Below are positions 7,675-16,087 of a stretch of 64,000 bases of DNA, piece after piece. How positions within the stretch are numbered: position 1 is the stretch's first letter; each line of letters opens with the position of its first letter. The stretch is from Ignavibacteriales bacterium (GTDB lineage Bacteria > Bacteroidota > Ignavibacteria > UBA10030). Location: contig JAPLFQ010000030.1 of the NCBI GenBank assembly GCA_026390595.1, forward strand, positions 1 through 64,000, read 5' to 3'. The notes under the pieces are model-generated. The model searched no databases. It was not told where the DNA came from and saw only the letters and a program-made list of their open reading frames with translations. A program made the position numbers and the translations under genes.

Positions 7675-8418
7675 TCAAACCCTGCCGACATCGAGCGCAC
7701 GCTCGAGCGTCGTGTCCTGGGCTTTGATCGTTCGTTGGTCCGTTTCGAAACTTCTGCTCAGTTCCACGAGTTGAATCATTTCGCCCAGGGCCTCCACGTT
7801 CGATTCTTCCAGAAACCCCTGACGGATTACTACTGAATGACCATCAACTGCGGCGCGCTGTTCGGGAGCATCGGTCGTAAACATCGTCTGGCCGGCTTTC
7901 CTCAGCTGTGACATGTCGCGGAAGTCGGCAATGCGCAATTGCCCAAGGACTGCCTTTCCCACCGTCACCTCGCCCCGCTCGTTAATCGTAATCGACGAAC
8001 CAACAGCTTTCTCGGGCCGCGGAATCTGAATATGGCCCGACGTGCTTAGCACGGGATATCCCTCAGCATTGACCACCGTCCCGTCCTGCGAAAGCGAGAA
8101 CCCGCCATTGCGAGTGTACTTGATCCCCTGCGGCGTTTCGACGACGAAGAATCCCTTTCCCTGGATCGCCAGATCCAGAGGGTTGTGTGTCTGGGCAAAG
8201 GAACCTTCTGAAAAGTCGGTAAACTGCTTGCTGTCCAACCCTTTCAAATCCGCAAGCCCTTCGACCTGCGACAGCCCTGCATCCTTCATGGCCTGGATGA
8301 AAAGGCTGTCTCTCTTGTACCCCGTCGTGGCCGAGTTCGCGATATTGTTTGCGAGGACCTCGAGGCGCGTCATCCGCGGCTGCATCCCTGTACCTGAATT
8401 GTAGATTCCTTTGATCAT
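7675..8418 (-). CDS. flgF: Proximal rod protein FlgF
   Basis: 247 aa. Rod family motifs: MIKGIYNSGTGMQPRMTRLE, NNIANSATTGYKRDSLF, NPLDLAIQGKGFFVVETPQG and the C-terminal EMIQLVELSRSFETDQRTIK. It is shorter than FlgG and next to it, which favours FlgF (FlhO type) over a second FlgG. It forms part of the proximal rod. Its ATG overlaps the stop of the upstream membrane protein gene by 4 bp, tying that unknown gene to rod production. Confidence 0.93.
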   Translation of the reverse strand: MIKGIYNSGTGMQPRMTRLEVLANNIANSATTGYKRDSLFIQAMKDAGLSQVEGLADLKGLDSKQFTDFSEGSFAQTHNPLDLAIQGKGFFVVETPQGIKYTRNGGFSLSQDGTVVNAEGYPVLSTSGHIQIPRPEKAVGSSITINERGEVTVGKAVLGQLRIADFRDMSQLRKAGQTMFTTDAPEQRAAVDGHSVVIRQGFLEESNVEALGEMIQLVELSRSFETDQRTIKAQDTTLERALDVGRV

Positions 8419-9608
8419 GCTGCGTCCTCCGTCTCCTTCTGAGCGAGAGATAACCGCAAGAGCTTCGACGCCAATTCGAGCTCACCCTTGCCAACGCCAA
8501 GCTTTTTGGCAGCCGAGATTCTACCCTTGGCCGGTATGATGGTAGTTCCTATCGTACGTGTGACGCTGAGATGACCCTGCGTCCGTGCGTTGTCCCGAAT
8601 TCTCATTGCGAGTTCGACGTCTCCCTGATTCCTATGATACTGTTCTGCGAACGTCAGTGCAGGCACTCCGTCCCGCTCAATCCTCTCCTCCGGTTCGAAT
8701 TCATACTTCCGTTCTTCCCGTGAGCGCTCGGGGACAGCGGCCTCACCCCTCTCTTCGTCGTTCGGCGTGCGCGTCTGTAACGACCGCGCCTGCGCTGATG
8801 CGAAGAGCAGCTGTTCGAGTTTGTTTGCCCTGGTCATCTTCCGCTTGATGAGGATAGCCAATGCGGCGATGGAGGTCAGGAGAGAAAAGCCTGCCACGAC
8901 AAGCCACACCAGGAGCTTCCTACCTGCGGGAGTTGGCTCCGAACCGGACTTCGAGCTCTGCAATGTCAGATTCGCCTGCGCCGGTGCATTACCTGCTGCT
9001 TTCGGATGACCAGCATCCTCGAGCTGTTGACGGGCGAGGGCAGCGATGTCGAACAGCGGCGACGGATGGTGTGGATCGTCCGGCAATGCTCTGTCCTGTG
9101 ATCTCTTCGCTGCGGCCTGAGGCCGACTCTGCTTTGCTTCTTTCGTCTGAGTTGGAGCAACCCTCGTCTTTACCGGAGATTCATTTGCGACGATGCTCGC
9201 GGCTGGGGCTACGGTGTTCTTCGCGAACACATCGATCCAGATTGCCTCGTGACGGTCGTGCTGGGTTACCTGGAACCTCGCGTAGCCATTCCGCAGCAGC
9301 ATGACTATTTTAGAAGTCGCGTTGACAACCGGTTCGACTGATGCGTTCTCTATGAGGCCGTTACGGAACTGCTTGTTCCACCCGCTCTGAGAAAGCGCCG
9401 ATTTGATATCAGTCACGGTCAGCGTCAGGACATTGCCGCGTAGTTCCTGAGAATACTTCAACGGTCCCTTGAAGAACACCAGGAGGCGGGTGTACTCGGG
9501 ACGAACGGCATAGCGCACATTTCCTTTCGCGGCGTCATCCTGCATCCCGGCAGCCGCACAGGAGAGCAGAATCATCGAAACCATGAGAGCAGTTGTGCGA
9601 GATCTCAT
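8415..9608 (-). CDS. Membrane protein with AMIN-like periplasmic domain and SwrB/DUF6115-like cytoplasmic tail
   Basis: 397 aa; no named family recognised for the whole protein. Residues 1-21 are a signal or signal-anchor segment. Residues about 30-128 read as an AMIN-like beta domain (YTRLLVFFKG, NVLTLTVTDI, IWIDVFAK). A low-complexity linker leads to one TM helix (LLVWLVVAGFSLLTSIAALAILI, roughly residues 228-250), given here in part. The cytoplasmic part ends GRISAAKKLGVGKGELELAS, which resembles the helix-turn-helix-like tail of DUF6115/SwrB proteins found in Bacillus flagellar operons. It overlaps flgF and the upstream kinase gene by 4 bp each. Role unknown; position suggests a basal-body or regulatory function at the cell wall. 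Confidence 0.8.
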   Translation of the reverse strand: MRSRTTALMVSMILLSCAAAGMQDDAAKGNVRYAVRPEYTRLLVFFKGPLKYSQELRGNVLTLTVTDIKSALSQSGWNKQFRNGLIENASVEPVVNATSKIVMLLRNGYARFQVTQHDRHEAIWIDVFAKNTVAPAASIVANESPVKTRVAPTQTKEAKQSRPQAAAKRSQDRALPDDPHHPSPLFDIAALARQQLEDAGHPKAAGNAPAQANLTLQSSKSGSEPTPAGRKLLVWLVVAGFSLLTSIAALAILIKRKMTRANKLEQLLFASAQARSLQTRTPNDEERGEAAVPERSREERKYEFEPEERIERDGVPALTFAEQYHRNQGDVELAMRIRDNARTQGHLSVTRTIGTTIIPAKGRISAAKKLGVGKGELELASKLLRLSLAQKETEDAA

Positions 9609-10987
9609 TGGGCAGTCCTCCTCACAGGCAAGCTGATAGAAAACGTAGTCCCCATTTCGGGGGACGATTGCACCTTGATCTCCCCCTTATGCTGCGATAT
9701 GATCTTGCTGCAAATCGAGAGACCGAGTCCCGTTCCCTTGCCGGCTTCCTTCGTGGTGAAAAACGGAGCGAAGATCTTCTCAATAACTTCCTTCGGAATT
9801 CCAGTGCCGGTGTCTGCCACGTGGACAAGCACTTTGAATCCTTTCGACTCCGTAGAGACCGCCACCTTGCCTCCGTCCGGCATGGCATCCCGGGCGTTGA
9901 TGAGCAAATTAAGAAACACCTGCTGGAGATAGTTGGCGTTCCCGGGGATCGTTGGCAGCGTCGCAGCCAAGTCCGTGGAAATTGCGACCCTGTTGTTCTG
10001 GAAATCATGCTTGACAATTGCAACGACATCCTCGATGGCTTTGTTAACATCCACGAGCTCGATCTGGAAATCGTCCGACACTTTCCGGGAGAATGTCATC
10101 AGCCGTTTCGTGATCTCCGCGAGCCGCCGCACCTGCTGGTTGAACATCTCAAGCCAGTTTGGTACCGGTTTTCCCTTCATCGCCATGTCCAGATGCATCA
10201 TGAGGATCTGGATTGGATTCTTTATCTCGTGGACGATACTTGCTGCCAACTCGCCGAGTGCGACGAGCTTCGCCGCCTGCATCATCTGCGCGTGGGAGGC
10301 CTTCAATTCCTGGTTGGCCTTCACGAGCTGGTGATAGGAGCGCCAGTTCTCGACCCCGGCCGCGGCCTGGTTTGCGAGCACGGTGAGGAGCTGCATGTCC
10401 TGGTTGGAGAATTCCTGCTGCGGCTTCTGTGTGTGGATCAGGTAGATACCGACATCCTTGTTACGCAGCACCAACGGGACGATCACAAAGTTCTGGGGCG
10501 ATCCGTCTCCCATCATATGAGAGAGATCGGGGATAATCACGGTCTTCTTTTCCGAGAACACCCAGTCCACGATGCCTGATTCGAGGTGCTGCTGGGCCTC
10601 GGCCACAAGGAGCTCCGAGCCATGAGATGTCAACGGGAGCAAGCGCTTATCCGACATGTCAAACAAGAAGACGTTCGCTTCGATGATGGGGAGCACCTGC
10701 TGGCTCAGCTCGATGAGCGTGCTCACAATGCGCTCCGGCTCGACGGCCGTGCTGATCGTGTTCGACAGCCGCTGCATCGCGACCAGCTCGTCGATCGACG
10801 ACCGAATGTCGAGGTTGTTCTTGTTGAACTGATTGTTCTCCCGCTTCAGGGCATCGATCGTCTGTTCCAGGGCCTTGATGTACATCTCCCTGTTTTCGAT
10901 GAACTGCTCTATCCGCGGCTCAGCCTCATCCACGAGATGCAGGCGGGGTCGGTCCTCTGATGGATTATTATGTTTGTTCGATGTCAT
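9605..10987 (-). CDS. Cytoplasmic GAF-domain sensor histidine kinase
   Basis: 460 aa, no TM segment. An N-terminal coiled coil (about 25-60) leads to a GAF domain (about 65-215), then HisKA with GELAASIVHEIKNPIQ (His253), and an HATPase with the N box LLINARDAMPDGG, G1 DTGTGIP and G2 GKGTGLGLSI. The family is close to NtrB/FleS/FlrB kinases that phosphorylate sigma-54 activators of flagellar genes. The two sigma-54 promoters in this window make that role attractive, but no NtrC-type regulator is encoded here. It overlaps the AMIN-like gene by 4 bp and follows an HDOD gene by 2 bp. Confidence 0.93.
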   Translation of the reverse strand: MTSNKHNNPSEDRPRLHLVDEAEPRIEQFIENREMYIKALEQTIDALKRENNQFNKNNLDIRSSIDELVAMQRLSNTISTAVEPERIVSTLIELSQQVLPIIEANVFLFDMSDKRLLPLTSHGSELLVAEAQQHLESGIVDWVFSEKKTVIIPDLSHMMGDGSPQNFVIVPLVLRNKDVGIYLIHTQKPQQEFSNQDMQLLTVLANQAAAGVENWRSYHQLVKANQELKASHAQMMQAAKLVALGELAASIVHEIKNPIQILMMHLDMAMKGKPVPNWLEMFNQQVRRLAEITKRLMTFSRKVSDDFQIELVDVNKAIEDVVAIVKHDFQNNRVAISTDLAATLPTIPGNANYLQQVFLNLLINARDAMPDGGKVAVSTESKGFKVLVHVADTGTGIPKEVIEKIFAPFFTTKEAGKGTGLGLSICSKIISQHKGEIKVQSSPEMGTTFSISLPVRRTAQ

Positions 10988-10989
10988 TT

Positions 10990-11865
10990 TTACATCACAT
11001 TCAGATGCGCAAGCATCGCCGCTTCACGGATATCGGCGTTGATCACTTCGGTGTAGTTTCTGATGTATTCCTCAAGCACGTTTGGATCGTCCAGCTGCAG
11101 CCGCGTGAGGGCCCCGGCGTCAAACTCGATTCCTTTATCAAACTCGACTGCTCCGCCGTTGATTCTCGCCGCGAACACGTCCGCGCAGTGGATAATGGCA
11201 ACCAGATCAGGGTTCTTCTCCGCTTTGCCCGGGTCGCTGTGCAGCAGCACGCCTTCGGCAAGGTGATCGGGCAGGTTCCATCGTTCGGCAAGCCAGCTGC
11301 CGATGTCCGCATGCGTGACACCCAAAACGCTCTCCTCCGCTTCCATAAACGTCAGATCGCTTTCGCGTGCAATATCGACAATGCGCTTAAACTCATTGTT
11401 GAAGTAGCGATGCATGACCGAAATGCCCATGTCGTGCAGCAGTCCTCCGACAAACACTTCTCCGCTCACACGGTAGCCGAGATCCCTCGCGAGCCTTCGT
11501 CCGATGACTCCGGTTGCAATGGAATGGTCCCAGAAGGCCTTCGAATCGAAATACTTGTCCGACTTTTTCTGCAGCGAACTCACCAGGGAGATGCTGATGA
11601 CAATCTCCTTCAGCGCATCAAAACCGAGGACAATGATCGCAAAATCGATCGTCGCGATCTTCTTGGGGAACCCGTAGAACGGGGAATTCGCGATCTTCAG
11701 GACTTTCGCGGTCAGCGCCTGGTCGGTGGAAATGATCTTTCCAAGTTGCGAGGCGCTAGTCTTCGGATTATCCACCATCTCCACAACCTCCATCGCAATC
11801 GACGGAAGCGCTGGCAGGTTGATAATGGTTTTAACTTTATCGCGTATGTAGTCAGCAGAGAGCAT
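10990..11865 (-). CDS. HDOD domain protein
   Basis: 291 aa. The HDOD domain covers about residues 10-215: INLPALPSIAMEVVEM, STDQALTAKVLKIANSPFYG, ATIDFAIIVLGFDALKEIVI and GGLLHDMGISVM. HDOD proteins are HD-fold relatives that usually lack phosphodiesterase activity and act in signalling or as scaffolds; several control flagella or chemotaxis. The C-terminal part is an extra helical stretch without a known catalytic motif. It lies 8 bp after a second HDOD gene and 2 bp before the GAF kinase gene, so the three are probably made together. Confidence 0.92.
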   Translation of the reverse strand: MLSADYIRDKVKTIINLPALPSIAMEVVEMVDNPKTSASQLGKIISTDQALTAKVLKIANSPFYGFPKKIATIDFAIIVLGFDALKEIVISISLVSSLQKKSDKYFDSKAFWDHSIATGVIGRRLARDLGYRVSGEVFVGGLLHDMGISVMHRYFNNEFKRIVDIARESDLTFMEAEESVLGVTHADIGSWLAERWNLPDHLAEGVLLHSDPGKAEKNPDLVAIIHCADVFAARINGGAVEFDKGIEFDAGALTRLQLDDPNVLEEYIRNYTEVINADIREAAMLAHLNVM

Positions 11866-11873
11866 GGGAGAAG

Positions 11874-12932
11874 CTACACAATTAGGGTTATTGCTGCGCG
11901 CAGTCTGGCAAGGGCTGTGGTCTGCAACTGCTCGACATCCGGAACTGAAACGCCCAACACTCTGGAAATGTCCACAATCGGAAGCCCCTCATAGTACAGC
12001 AGGGCGAGTACGACCCGTTCCTGTTCTGACAGCTCCTGCATTACCTCAACGAGGTTCTGCTTCAGTTCCGTGATCAGGGTTGCAAACTTCGGAGCGTGGG
12101 AAAGGTCCTCGCGGATTGAGGCAACGTATCCTGAGGCAGAATCGTTGGTCAGCGCCGCTTCCGTCAGCCCTAGAGTCGCAAGCGCCTGAGGGTCATATCC
12201 TTCGATCGATTCGTAATCCGTCTTGTGAATCTGGAGACGATGGCAGAGAACTTCAGCGGTATGAACGATGGAGACCAAGGTCCTGTGCGTCGTCGCGGAG
12301 GCCGGCTTGTGGTGAAGCCTGATCGCCGTGACGATATCATCCGACAGATGCCAGTGCGTCGCCAGCCAGGCACCTACATCAGCATGATCCTGTTTCGGGA
12401 GGGACGCGGAGACTAACCCTTTCGAAGTGCCTGCGCCCCCCTTGTTCATCCCATCATCACTGACGTGCTCATTGAGAATGACATAGCCAATATCATGGAG
12501 CAACCCGGCGACAAACGCGTCGTTCGGGTCGCAAAGGCCGGTCTGCTCAGAGATGAAGCGTGCCCCGAGCCCACATCCGATGGAATGGTCCCAGAACGCC
12601 TCGAACCGAATCATACTGTTCACCATGCGTCGGAACGCCCCCGTGACGATGGAACGAACCACCATTTCGCGGAGAGCGTCAAATCCGAGCAGGATAACGG
12701 CAAAATTAGGGTCCTTGACGCGTCGCGAAAACCCGTAAATGGGCGAATTCGCCTGCCGCAACACCCGTCTGACGAGCGTTTGGTCCTTTGAAATTGCCGA
12801 CGTGAGTTTCGCCACACTCGTGAGCGGATTGTCGACGAGTTCGATGATCTCATTCACGCGATTCGAAATCGAGGGACGCCTCACCAGGGAGACGTAGCTT
12901 TCGGACACCAACTGATCGGACGTTGTTGTCAT
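11874..12932 (-). CDS. HDOD protein with a C-terminal sigma-70 region 4-like helix-turn-helix
   Basis: 352 aa from the ATG at 12932, which overlaps the fliA stop in ATGA; a longer frame up to 13133 lies wholly inside fliA and is rejected. Residues about 10-210 are an HDOD domain (QANSPIYGFSRRVKDPNFAV, AGLLHDIGYVILNEH). The last 56 residues align without gaps to the last 56 of FliA, with 21 identities by hand count, including the ALLYYEGLP/ALYYYEELT helix and the LARLR/LQELR end. In the would-be recognition helix the FliA residues SESRV become SVPDV, so -35 contacts may differ. I know of no described protein of this architecture. It may tune FliA or share its targets; that is inference. Confidence 0.88.
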   Translation of the reverse strand: MTTTSDQLVSESYVSLVRRPSISNRVNEIIELVDNPLTSVAKLTSAISKDQTLVRRVLRQANSPIYGFSRRVKDPNFAVILLGFDALREMVVRSIVTGAFRRMVNSMIRFEAFWDHSIGCGLGARFISEQTGLCDPNDAFVAGLLHDIGYVILNEHVSDDGMNKGGAGTSKGLVSASLPKQDHADVGAWLATHWHLSDDIVTAIRLHHKPASATTHRTLVSIVHTAEVLCHRLQIHKTDYESIEGYDPQALATLGLTEAALTNDSASGYVASIREDLSHAPKFATLITELKQNLVEVMQELSEQERVVLALLYYEGLPIVDISRVLGVSVPDVEQLQTTALARLRAAITLIV

Positions 12933-13687
12933 ACCGTGTCCTCTAAGTATGTGCGCAATTCTTGCAGAACAGCTGTGTGGATTTGAAATACGCGTGACTC
13001 CGAAATCCGAAGGATCCGGCCGATCTCCCGGAATGTCAACTCTTCGTAATAGTACAGTGCCATCACCAGGCGATCCCGCTCTTCCAGCGACTCCAGCGCT
13101 CCGATCAACCGGCTCCGCGTATCTTCGGCACACAGAATCTCATGGGGGTCGGTGGACGGATCGGCTGCGATGTTCTGAATAACATCGGTTTCGTCGTCGT
13201 AACTGACACGGTGATCCATGGTGGCACCTTTCGCTGCGGTCAGCAATTCCTGATATTCCTCAATCGTTAACGAGAGTTTCGTCGCAATTTCCCCGGCCGT
13301 GAGCGTCTGGTTGTCCGCGCTCTCAGATTCCTGAACTACCCGGTTTCCCTGCCGCCCCTTCTTCCGAACAGATCGCGGAATCCAGTCGAGTTTTCTCAAT
13401 TCGTCGAGGATGGTGCCCCGGATCCTGGTTACCGCATACGTCTCAAACCGTACATTCTTTGCCGGATCAAACTTCTCGATAGCGTCCAGCAATCCGAGGA
13501 GTCCGAATTGGATCAGATCCTTCTCTTCAAGAACACGCTCCTGTGCTGTATGAATAAAGCCAAACCGGCTCGTCACATAACGGACAAGCCCGAGATTGCT
13601 CTCGACCAGATCTTTCTTTGAGCAGCATAGATCTTCGCCGGACATCGACCGGTGCTCCATGGATCTCTGTGCAGACATGGTCATCAT
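12929..13687 (-). CDS. fliA: Flagellar sigma factor FliA (sigma-28)
   Basis: 252 aa. Region 2: KDLIQFGLLGLLDAIEKFDP, NVRFETYAVTRIRGTILDEL and LDWIPRSVRKKGR. Region 3: LTAGEIATKLSLTIEEYQEL. Region 4: RLVMALYYYEELTFREIGRI and SESRVFQIH. FliA directs late flagellar and chemotaxis transcription; a good match to its promoter type lies at 50468-50494. The start could be any of the ATGs at 13687, 13684 or 13678, with no strong ribosome site. It is coupled to the HDOD gene downstream. Its usual anti-sigma factor FlgM was not found in the window. Confidence 0.96.
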   Translation of the reverse strand: MMTMSAQRSMEHRSMSGEDLCCSKKDLVESNLGLVRYVTSRFGFIHTAQERVLEEKDLIQFGLLGLLDAIEKFDPAKNVRFETYAVTRIRGTILDELRKLDWIPRSVRKKGRQGNRVVQESESADNQTLTAGEIATKLSLTIEEYQELLTAAKGATMDHRVSYDDETDVIQNIAADPSTDPHEILCAEDTRSRLIGALESLEERDRLVMALYYYEELTFREIGRILRISESRVFQIHTAVLQELRTYLEDTV

Positions 13688-13708: not shown

Positions 13709-13945
13709 CTAGGCCGCAGTCTGCGATGGTTTACTCACAGGGCGCGGCTCCTCTTTTTGCGGACTCCGCTCTTTGCTTGCGATCAACACTGCAAGGGCAA
13801 GGAGCGCTGAAAGTGCAACCGTGACAATGACAAATACAATAAACGCACGGGCAACGGTGTCAAGAACCGGATAGCGTTCCGTCGAGAACGCCACAAGGGA
13901 AACGAAGAACGCCAATGCTCCAATTTGGAAGATGATCTTGTTCAT
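13709..13945 (-). CDS. Small two-helix membrane protein of the flagellar operon, unknown
   Basis: 78 aa. Two hydrophobic segments, about residues 5-20 (FQIGALAFFVSLVAF) and 31-53 (ARAFIVFVIVTVALSALLAL), are followed by a basic, proline-rich tail SKERSPQKEEPRPVSKPSQ. No family recognised. Its ATG overlaps the flhG stop by 4 bp and fliA follows after 21 bp, so it is translated with FlhG and probably real. The layout between flhG and fliA may hint at a membrane partner for either one, but nothing in the sequence shows that. Confidence 0.75.
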   Translation of the reverse strand: MNKIIFQIGALAFFVSLVAFSTERYPVLDTVARAFIVFVIVTVALSALLALAVLIASKERSPQKEEPRPVSKPSQTAA

Positions 13946-14802
13946 ACCGGCTCCAGCCTCCTTGCTTCCGTGTGGGATGGTACCTGAGCACCAAATGTCC
14001 TTGCGAGTGCCCGAAGAGACAGCGCTGCTGGTGAGTAAGGATAGAGCTTCACCAATGGCTGCTGTTGCACGACCGCCCGCAGTGTGTTGTCATCATAGGG
14101 AATGAAGCCGATGTAGCTGGCCTGCGCGTTCAGGAAGTGACAGAGCGCAGTCTGCAGTTTCTCCGCAGCCTCGTTGGCACATTGAGCGAGCCGCACGGCG
14201 TTCATGAGAAAACTGATTGGAATGCCGGGATTTCCCGCAAGGATGATCTTCATCATCGCGTAGGCATCCATCACCGACGTCGGTTCGACGTTTGTGACGA
14301 CCAAGACGTCGTCTGAATGAATGGCGAAATTCACAATCTCTCTGCTCAGTCCCGCCGCCGTGTCAATTACGACGAGATCAAAATGTTCCTCTGTCGATAC
14401 GAGGTCATGCATCAACCGGTTCTGGTGCTCCAGATCGAGCTGCGGATACGCAGGATCGCCTGAACTCCCTGCGAGAATCTTCAGCCGCTGGTACGGGCTC
14501 ACCACTGCGTCCTCAATCCCAAGCTCGCCCCTCAACACGTTGTTCAGTCTCCATTTCGGTGAGATGCCGAGCATCACGTCCAGGTTTGCGAGGTTTGCGT
14601 CCGCGTCGAGCAGGAGAACATTCTTGCCTGTTTCCGAGAGTGTGATGGCCAGGTTCAACGCGACAGTGCTCTTGCCAACGCCCCCCTTTCCAGAGGTAAT
14701 CGTGACGACATGAGGTCGGACGCGGCCGACTTCGACATGACGCCTGGATGTCATCCGCCGCAACCCTGAAGCTTGATCCTGTATGTGTGTCTCGTCATGC
14801 AT
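13942..14802 (-). CDS. flhG: MinD-like ATPase FlhG (FleN/YlxH)
   Basis: 286 aa from the ATG at 14802, which overlaps flhF by 8 bp; a longer frame to 14847 lies deeper in flhF and is less likely. The deviant Walker A TSGKGGVGKST is at about residues 36-46, followed by LLLDADANLANLDVMLG and LVVIDTAAGLSREIV, all typical of ParA/MinD ATPases. FlhG controls flagellar number and position by acting on FlhF and on the C-ring. The C-terminus lacks an obvious amphipathic membrane-binding helix. It sits directly after flhF, the usual order. Confidence 0.95.
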   Translation of the reverse strand: MHDETHIQDQASGLRRMTSRRHVEVGRVRPHVVTITSGKGGVGKSTVALNLAITLSETGKNVLLLDADANLANLDVMLGISPKWRLNNVLRGELGIEDAVVSPYQRLKILAGSSGDPAYPQLDLEHQNRLMHDLVSTEEHFDLVVIDTAAGLSREIVNFAIHSDDVLVVTNVEPTSVMDAYAMMKIILAGNPGIPISFLMNAVRLAQCANEAAEKLQTALCHFLNAQASYIGFIPYDDNTLRAVVQQQPLVKLYPYSPAALSLRALARTFGAQVPSHTEARRLEPV

Positions 14803-16087
14803 GAGCCAATGCGCCTTGATACACCAATGATGCAAACTTGATGCCATCGGCTACGACGATATCGTCCGGAACTCCTTGTCCTGTCGTCAGATAAGAAACG
14901 TTCACATTTGCCTTCTGCGCAATATTGAACAGTGGTCCGAAAGTAACCGCCTCATCAATTTTCGAAAAAATGATGTTGTTCGGGCGAAGAACCTTGAACT
15001 TCTCGACGATTTCGAGGAGTGTTCTGGCGCCGGTGGAAGCACTCAGGACCAGGTGTACCTCGTCCGGTTTGGCAGCTTCCACGAATTTCCTCAACTCCGT
15101 CAGGTCCTTTGAGGAGCGCTGGCTTCTGCCGACCGTATCGACGAGGATTACGTCCTTGTCCGAGAATTTCTTCAGTGCTGCGCTCATTTCCGACGGCCTG
15201 TAGACTACTTCCATGGGAATATCAGCAATGGAGGCAAACGTCCGGAGCTGTTCAATTGCTCCGATCCGAAATGTGTCTACGGTGATCAAACCAACCCGCG
15301 CGCTGTTCAGGAACTTCTCAATGGCAGCAAGCTTGGCAATCGTCGTTGTCTTGCCTGCCCCGGTGGGACCAACGAGCGCGACGACCCGGGAACGCTTCGT
15401 CTTGTGCCTGGGGGGGGCTCCGGTTTTCACCAAAGCGGCGATCGTCTCGATCAGGCGCCGGTCTATGATCTCTTTCCTGTCCAGATGCCCGGGAGGCACG
15501 CTCTTGAAGACAGCATCCGTCAACCTGGTTGCCGATTCCTCACTGACATCTTGTTCAATCAGATCCACATACGCCCGTTTCAGATGATCCGGCAGGGCGG
15601 GCGTCTGGCTGAATCTCAGCGTGTGCGCAATTTCTGTCACTGTGGATTTGATATCCTCCACTTCGGATTTCAGGTGGTAGTATTCGGCCGCTTCTCTCGC
15701 CTGCGGCGGAATCAATTTGGAGCTCTCCGTATGCCGCTTTTCGAAATGCTCAGCCACTTTTCTCAAACCGTCGACAGTCTGATGGCTTTCACCGCGCACA
15801 TTTCCCGTTGGCACCTGGAGGCCGGTATTCTTCAGCAGGGCCTCGAAGCTCCTTGCGTGCCGCCCGTCTGCGTCACGGCTTCCCCCCGGGGAGTACGTGG
15901 AATGCTGCAGGTCCACCTGCTCGTCGATTGCTGCGGTGATTTCTATGAGTTCTTTCCCGAGGACTCCGAGTACACCCCCCTTTGAGACCCGGTGCGTATT
16001 CAAGACGATAGCGTCCGGACCAAGTTCGTTCTTCATCTGTTGTGTAACGCTCTTGATGTCCGGACCGACAAATTTCTTAATTCTCAT
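14795..16087 (-). CDS. flhF: SRP-type GTPase FlhF
   Basis: 430 aa. The FlhF-specific B domain begins MRIKKFVGPDIKSVTQQMKN with ELGPDAIVLNTHRV. A variable middle part leads to the NG GTPase domain: Walker A GPTGAGKTTT (residues 240-249), LITVDTFRIGAIEQL, ILVDTVGRSQRS and SKIDEA, where Ser replaces the more common Thr. FlhF marks the site of flagellum assembly, often the pole, and recruits early export and MS-ring parts. It overlaps flhA by 11 bp upstream and flhG by 8 bp downstream. Confidence 0.96.
   Translation of the reverse strand: MRIKKFVGPDIKSVTQQMKNELGPDAIVLNTHRVSKGGVLGVLGKELIEITAAIDEQVDLQHSTYSPGGSRDADGRHARSFEALLKNTGLQVPTGNVRGESHQTVDGLRKVAEHFEKRHTESSKLIPPQAREAAEYYHLKSEVEDIKSTVTEIAHTLRFSQTPALPDHLKRAYVDLIEQDVSEESATRLTDAVFKSVPPGHLDRKEIIDRRLIETIAALVKTGAPPRHKTKRSRVVALVGPTGAGKTTTIAKLAAIEKFLNSARVGLITVDTFRIGAIEQLRTFASIADIPMEVVYRPSEMSAALKKFSDKDVILVDTVGRSQRSSKDLTELRKFVEAAKPDEVHLVLSASTGARTLLEIVEKFKVLRPNNIIFSKIDEAVTFGPLFNIAQKANVNVSYLTTGQGVPDDIVVADGIKFASLVYQGALAHA

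Follow-up and report, generated by a model that had tools for sequence, protein, structure and literature searches.

An HDOD protein with a degraded FliA-type sigma region 4, encoded directly behind fliA in an Ignavibacteriales bacterium, is a possible FlgM decoy

The window, the whole 64,000-nucleotide stretch of DNA analysed here (bases 1-64000 of contig C30), carries a flagellar locus on its reverse strand. Its fliA gene (12929..13687) encodes a sigma-28 of 252 aa that matches the TIGR02479 FliA_WhiG model above cut-off (1.8e-62). The conserved upstream neighbours are open reading frames for an flhF-type GTPase (14795..16087) and a fleN/flhG-type ATPase (13942..14847), both named from reading their sequence. 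Directly behind fliA lies the gene for H1 (11874..12932), a protein of 352 aa with an ATG start in which an HDOD domain is fused to a sigma region 4. The fliA stop and the H1 start overlap by the four bases ATGA (12929..12932), and the coordinates confirm the coupling to fliA described in an earlier note on this DNA. The same 4-bp overlap was found in two genomes of the same order (G017 and G036) and in five loci compared from another order. H1 is followed by H2 (10990..11865), a plain HDOD protein of 291 aa (Pfam HDOD, 2.2e-62) that is the downstream partner of H1 in every fusion locus, and by a histidine kinase with the Pfam architecture GAF-HisKA-HATPase (9605..10987), whose place beside H2 is conserved. 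A further protein of 397 aa, encoded at 8415-9608 on the same strand, has a likely signal peptide, a likely transmembrane helix and no Pfam match over cut-off; its position between the kinase and flgF/flgG is conserved in the order.

The HDOD domain of H1 spans residues 20-210 (12303..12875), as judged by Pfam (PF08668, 3.3e-47, 161 bits against a curated cut-off of 22.9) and by alignment counts. The tail, residues 288-349 (11886..12071), was matched by a FliA region-4 profile at 3.8e-15. The HMM comparison that the earlier note had proposed for residues 297-352 gave a Sigma70_r4 (PF04545) match at residues 297-346 with 1.6e-10 and 40.7 bits, above the cut-off of 24.1, so that the sigma region 4-like tail described in that note is recovered on an HDOD protein. 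The top NCBIfam match of H1 was FliA_WhiG (TIGR02479, 7.7e-16), confined to the C-terminal third; the score of 58.5 bits falls short of the 189.6 bits required for the whole protein, regions 2 and 3 included. Pfam searches of H1 for a receiver domain or sigma-2 gave no match, and neither did a Pfam search for FlgM (PF04316), which is a separate gene. Aligned end to end without gaps, the last 56 residues of H1 and of FliA share 21 identities, exactly the number counted by hand earlier; 20,000 shuffles gave a mean of 4.9 and a maximum of 14.

Sequence searches of the PDB matched residues 18-231 of H1 to HDOD structures and the tail to region 4 of FliA/WhiG. An AlphaFold model of H1 (pLDDT 73.9, pTM 0.59) gave a similar picture. 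Its residues 284-349 could be superposed on region 4 of FliA as crystallised with FlgM (1sc5_A, Z 9.5, rmsd 2.5 over 66 residues, 35% identity), which speaks against the unrelated helical bundle that the earlier note had considered, and its HDOD part matched the HDOD structure 3hc1. The structure of SadB (9qzk) was also among the fold matches. The pTM of 0.59 is too low for the packing of the domains to be read from the model. By the model, the tail retains the helix-turn-helix fold of sigma-4. HDOD domains are usually regarded as non-catalytic. Seven residues of H1, H116, H146, D147, H183, H207, H208 and H224, are kept in 15/15 fusions; the set is also present in nearly all H2 proteins and resembles the metal ligands of HD-GYP enzymes, which is odd given the usual view.

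We compared 19 tails with 34 FliA proteins encoded in these loci; positions follow E. coli FliA, as verified on chain 6pmi_F. The recognition-helix residues R220, Q223 and H225 were each present in all 34 FliA proteins. Among the tails, R220 was found in four, Q223 in four and H225 in nine, and no tail had all three. In H1 the helix reads SVPDVEQLQ (residues 329-337; 11922..11948), compared with SESRVFQIH in FliA: R220 is replaced by D332 and H225 by Q337, and Q223 is kept as Q335. R220 and Q223 align with R586 and Q589 of sigma-70, which we take to be DNA-contacting residues. The net charge over positions 216-235 was +1.35 in FliA versus -0.74 in the tails (Mann-Whitney p 2e-5, a value that is merely indicative since the sequences are related). 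The core was retained, with L199 and A228 in 19/19 tails and E203 and L189 in 18/19; the pattern of a kept core and a changed recognition helix, noted earlier for H1, is thus general in the family. L232 was also kept, and so was Y201 in most tails, with Leu in the genus from the other order, and R192 and E191, common in FliA, were not. Loss of the DNA-recognition residues together with retention of the core points to protein binding, and the tail is most likely a sigma mimic that binds protein rather than a reader of DNA.

The block flhF-fleN-fliA-[HDOD-region 4]-HDOD-kinase recurred across the loci compared, and both this gene order and the coupling to fliA hold across families and in one other order. 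In a search of 98 genomes of the same order, a fusion profile matched 31 at 1e-40. Full-length fusions were present in eight (G000, the window genome, and G017, G006, G040, G056, G036, G317 and G318), and ten species of one genus from another order of the class carry a fusion of 388 residues, which answers the suggestion that the same fusion be sought beside fliA in other genomes. Region 4 is more divergent in these ten, and the two tails tested fell under the Pfam cut-off; a profile of FliA region 4, made from the sequences of these loci, detected the tail in all five of the fusions tested (2e-9 to 3e-10). Beyond these two groups, no full-length fusion was found in a 395-genome sample of the phylum at the threshold used. 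Peptides specific to the window, scanned against 84,980 species genomes, returned one unfused HDOD only, and a plasmid search returned HDOD parts only. Two species of one genus (G036 and G317) have two fusions each, in tandem behind fliA (L059:4314-6439 and L133:4567-6695); these copies are old and quite unlike one another. Several genomes of the order are without H1, and none of its loci compared here has an H1 with the HDOD domain and without region 4. In other parts of the class, one or two plain HDOD genes come after fliA (L143-L148, L152), from which the fliA-HDOD arrangement looks ancestral and region 4 a later addition.

Region 4 also occurs without a full HDOD domain. In G274 and G312 the gene between fliA and H2 encodes nothing but region 4 (93 residues in G274, 100 in G312), with Pfam region-4 matches of 6e-11 and 4e-9. 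G279 has a protein of 190 aa with about half an HDOD domain and region 4, and G049 one of 229 aa with half an HDOD domain and region 4 (L061:3851-4540, reverse strand). The G049 tail shares 34/74 residues with its own FliA and groups with it in the tree, and its HDOD half resembles the H2 of the same genome; this gene may for that reason be a separate, independent birth of the fusion. Between the two free-standing genes, the region-4 part was 70% identical with a dN/dS of 0.12 and the short N-terminal part 41% identical with a dN/dS of 0.29 (NG86; both values are approximate, as dS is about 1.5 and near saturation). In the genus from the other order, NG86 gave the region-4 part a dN/dS of 0.06-0.15 in those comparisons that allowed dS to be computed; the linker preceding region 4 was the least conserved part. 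These low ratios indicate that the region 4 tail is under purifying selection.

In a tree of the HDOD domains, one branch set apart the fusions of the same order (100/100) and another those of the genus from the other order (100/100). A weakly supported branch (87/47) separated all HDOD domains bearing region 4 from the H2 proteins. The branches of H1 were far longer than those of H2, which means that H1 evolves faster. The region-4 tree, built from few columns, separated the FliA group from all tails but that of G049 (aLRT 97) and placed the bare region 4 of G274 and G312 with the second tandem fusion of G036 and G317 (aLRT 91). Both trees fit an old and likely origin in which a fliA-HDOD pair would have been duplicated in tandem, after which a deletion would have fused the first HDOD gene to region 4 of the second fliA copy; the product would be exactly the order fliA-[HDOD-region 4]-HDOD. 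Other origins fared less well. A recent copying of the tail from the adjacent fliA is at odds with the position of the tails, except that of G049, outside the FliA group. Separate gains of region 4 in the two orders are not needed, because all region-4-bearing HDOD domains can share one side of a branch, although the support for that branch is weak (87/47). The earlier note had also considered a local duplication or a frameshift artefact; many genomes carry this architecture in the same position, which led us to reject that reading along with an assembly artefact.

The textbook checkpoint on FliA is its control by FlgM, which is known to be lifted by export of FlgM through the finished hook-basal body. 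The earlier note saw no FlgM, which is correct for the window and incorrect for the genome. A profile (A2) made from ten FlgM-like open reading frames of relatives, which are short and below the Pfam cut-off, had one strong match in the window genome, 9.3 kb past the window end (C30:73326-73577, reverse strand, in G000; L099:1492-1752, reverse strand), so that an absence of FlgM is ruled out. This flgM adjoins a gene that reads like fliD. At least one match was found in each of 14 other genomes (15/15 in all), with six of the 15 having no member of their own in the profile, or weaker matches. The best PDB match of the profile was Aquifex FlgM (1rp3_B, 8e-4). The stock Pfam FlgM model misses the divergent flgM of the window genome altogether, and the ten-sequence profile would better detect FlgM in this clade. 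FlgM is also present in relatives without the fusion, so its co-occurrence with the fusion carries no signal.

With FlgM in the genome, a decoy for FlgM becomes the simpler reading of the tail. We tentatively propose that H1 is a putative PhyR-like decoy, gated by its HDOD domain, that binds FlgM and frees FliA; on the sequences, the model and the analogy with PhyR, this seems quite possible, though not yet probable. H1 would be made together with FliA, and its tail would fold as sigma-4 and no longer read the -35 element. What the tail would instead present is the face with which sigma-4 binds proteins, and its partner would most likely be the anti-sigma factor FlgM. With FlgM occupied by the tail, FliA would be free, and the late flagellar genes would be transcribed more strongly or earlier. 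A signal would lead the HDOD domain, possibly helped by H2 and the histidine kinase, to expose the tail or hide it. A decoy is the simplest reading because the tail is probably blind to DNA, is coupled to FliA by the 4-bp overlap and is retained even in bare form; the FliA type of its region 4, the selection on it, the constant linkage to fliA and the presence of flgM also speak for it. Slightly more tentatively still, the locus could be a flagellar partner switch, in which an HDOD-gated sigma-28 region-4 decoy, co-translated with FliA and found in some species as a bare form of 93-100 aa, titrates intracellular FlgM beside FlgM export. FlgM wraps FliA and blocks polymerase-binding determinants of both sigma-2 and sigma-4 (PMC4598750). 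Since it binds FliA also via sigma-2, a lone region 4 may compete weakly, and the more diverged tail of the other order, with Leu at Y201, also counts against a decoy.

The face of sigma-4 that contacts FlgM overlaps with the one that contacts RNA polymerase, so conservation cannot separate a FlgM decoy from a tail that docks on the beta flap in place of sigma-4. Docking there would weaken the FliA (or housekeeping) holoenzyme, or tether the HDOD protein to polymerase, in a manner comparable to phage T4 gp33. We consider this rather unlikely. Sigma-4 does bind the flap (PMC4598750). L199, L232 and mostly Y201 are kept in the tails, and the loss of DNA reading suits such docking equally well; against it, R192 and E191 of FliA are not kept. 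An isolated sigma-4 should, moreover, be a weak flap binder. Less likely again is that HDOD proteins encoded beside fliA bind region 4 of FliA itself, and that the fused copy is a pseudo-ligand in cis that determines how active H1 is or connects it with H2. Plain HDOD genes follow fliA in much of the class, from which an HDOD-FliA link would predate the fusion, and interacting partners are often joined by domain fusion. The bare region 4 of G274 and G312 has no HDOD domain in the same gene, however, although H2 could be its partner, and the domain packing in the model, at a pTM of 0.59, is unreliable.

Neither of the two remaining explanations appears probable. Region 4 could be an evolutionary leftover, a by-product of the duplication and deletion with no role of its own, as the faster evolution of H1 relative to H2 and the genomes of the order without H1 might suggest; its dN/dS far below 1, its long retention over two orders and the bare region-4 genes make this improbable. 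The earlier note had also raised the idea that the tail recruits FliA-like DNA contacts, guiding H1 to promoters read by FliA. The tail does have a predicted helix-turn-helix fold, but R220, Q223 and H225, present in 34/34 FliA proteins and together in 0/19 tails, and the positive charge are lost across the family, which makes a DNA-binding regulator highly improbable.

H1 can be set beside several known systems. It is homologous to FliA/sigma-28 in its region 4 and differs from it in the absence of regions 2 and 3 and in its degraded recognition helix, and for these reasons cannot act as a sigma factor. Phage T4 gp33 is a flap-bound sigma-4-like protein without DNA or promoter reading; it differs from H1 in being a phage protein with a sliding-clamp partner. 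SadB of Pseudomonas (PMC6543031) likewise has an HDOD domain tied to motility control, but has no region 4 as matched and lies in another genomic setting. In alphaproteobacteria, PhyR acts by sigma-factor mimicry on the anti-sigma factor NepR; its sigma-like domain now serves to trap the anti-sigma factor, under the control of the regulatory domain fused to it (PMC4598750, PMC5898713). H1 resembles PhyR in joining a regulatory domain, here HDOD, to a sigma-like part whose DNA reading is degraded, and in lying in a sigma-factor regulatory locus without itself being a sigma factor; some tails had sub-threshold matches to the Pfam model of the PhyR sigma-like domain. In contrast to PhyR, which combines ECF-type sigma-2 and sigma-4 with a receiver, H1 combines a FliA-type sigma-4 with HDOD in a flagellar locus. 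In the literature searched, which left most subscription journals outside, we found no HDOD domain combined with sigma region 4, and a search for FlgM-resistant region-4 mutants of FliA gave nothing usable. If true, a sigma-28 mimic behind fliA would constitute a second, cytoplasmic release route from FlgM with a sensor domain of its own and a second case of sigma-factor mimicry, unrelated to PhyR, and would hint at the targets of the many HDOD proteins encoded beside fliA. Thanks to the free-standing region-4 genes, a protein of only 93 residues would suffice to test the decoy idea.

No match to the HDOD family described here was found in five genus mates of the window genome (G001-G005), although relatives from other families that have flagella did match it; flagellar genes seem to have been lost or gained patchily.
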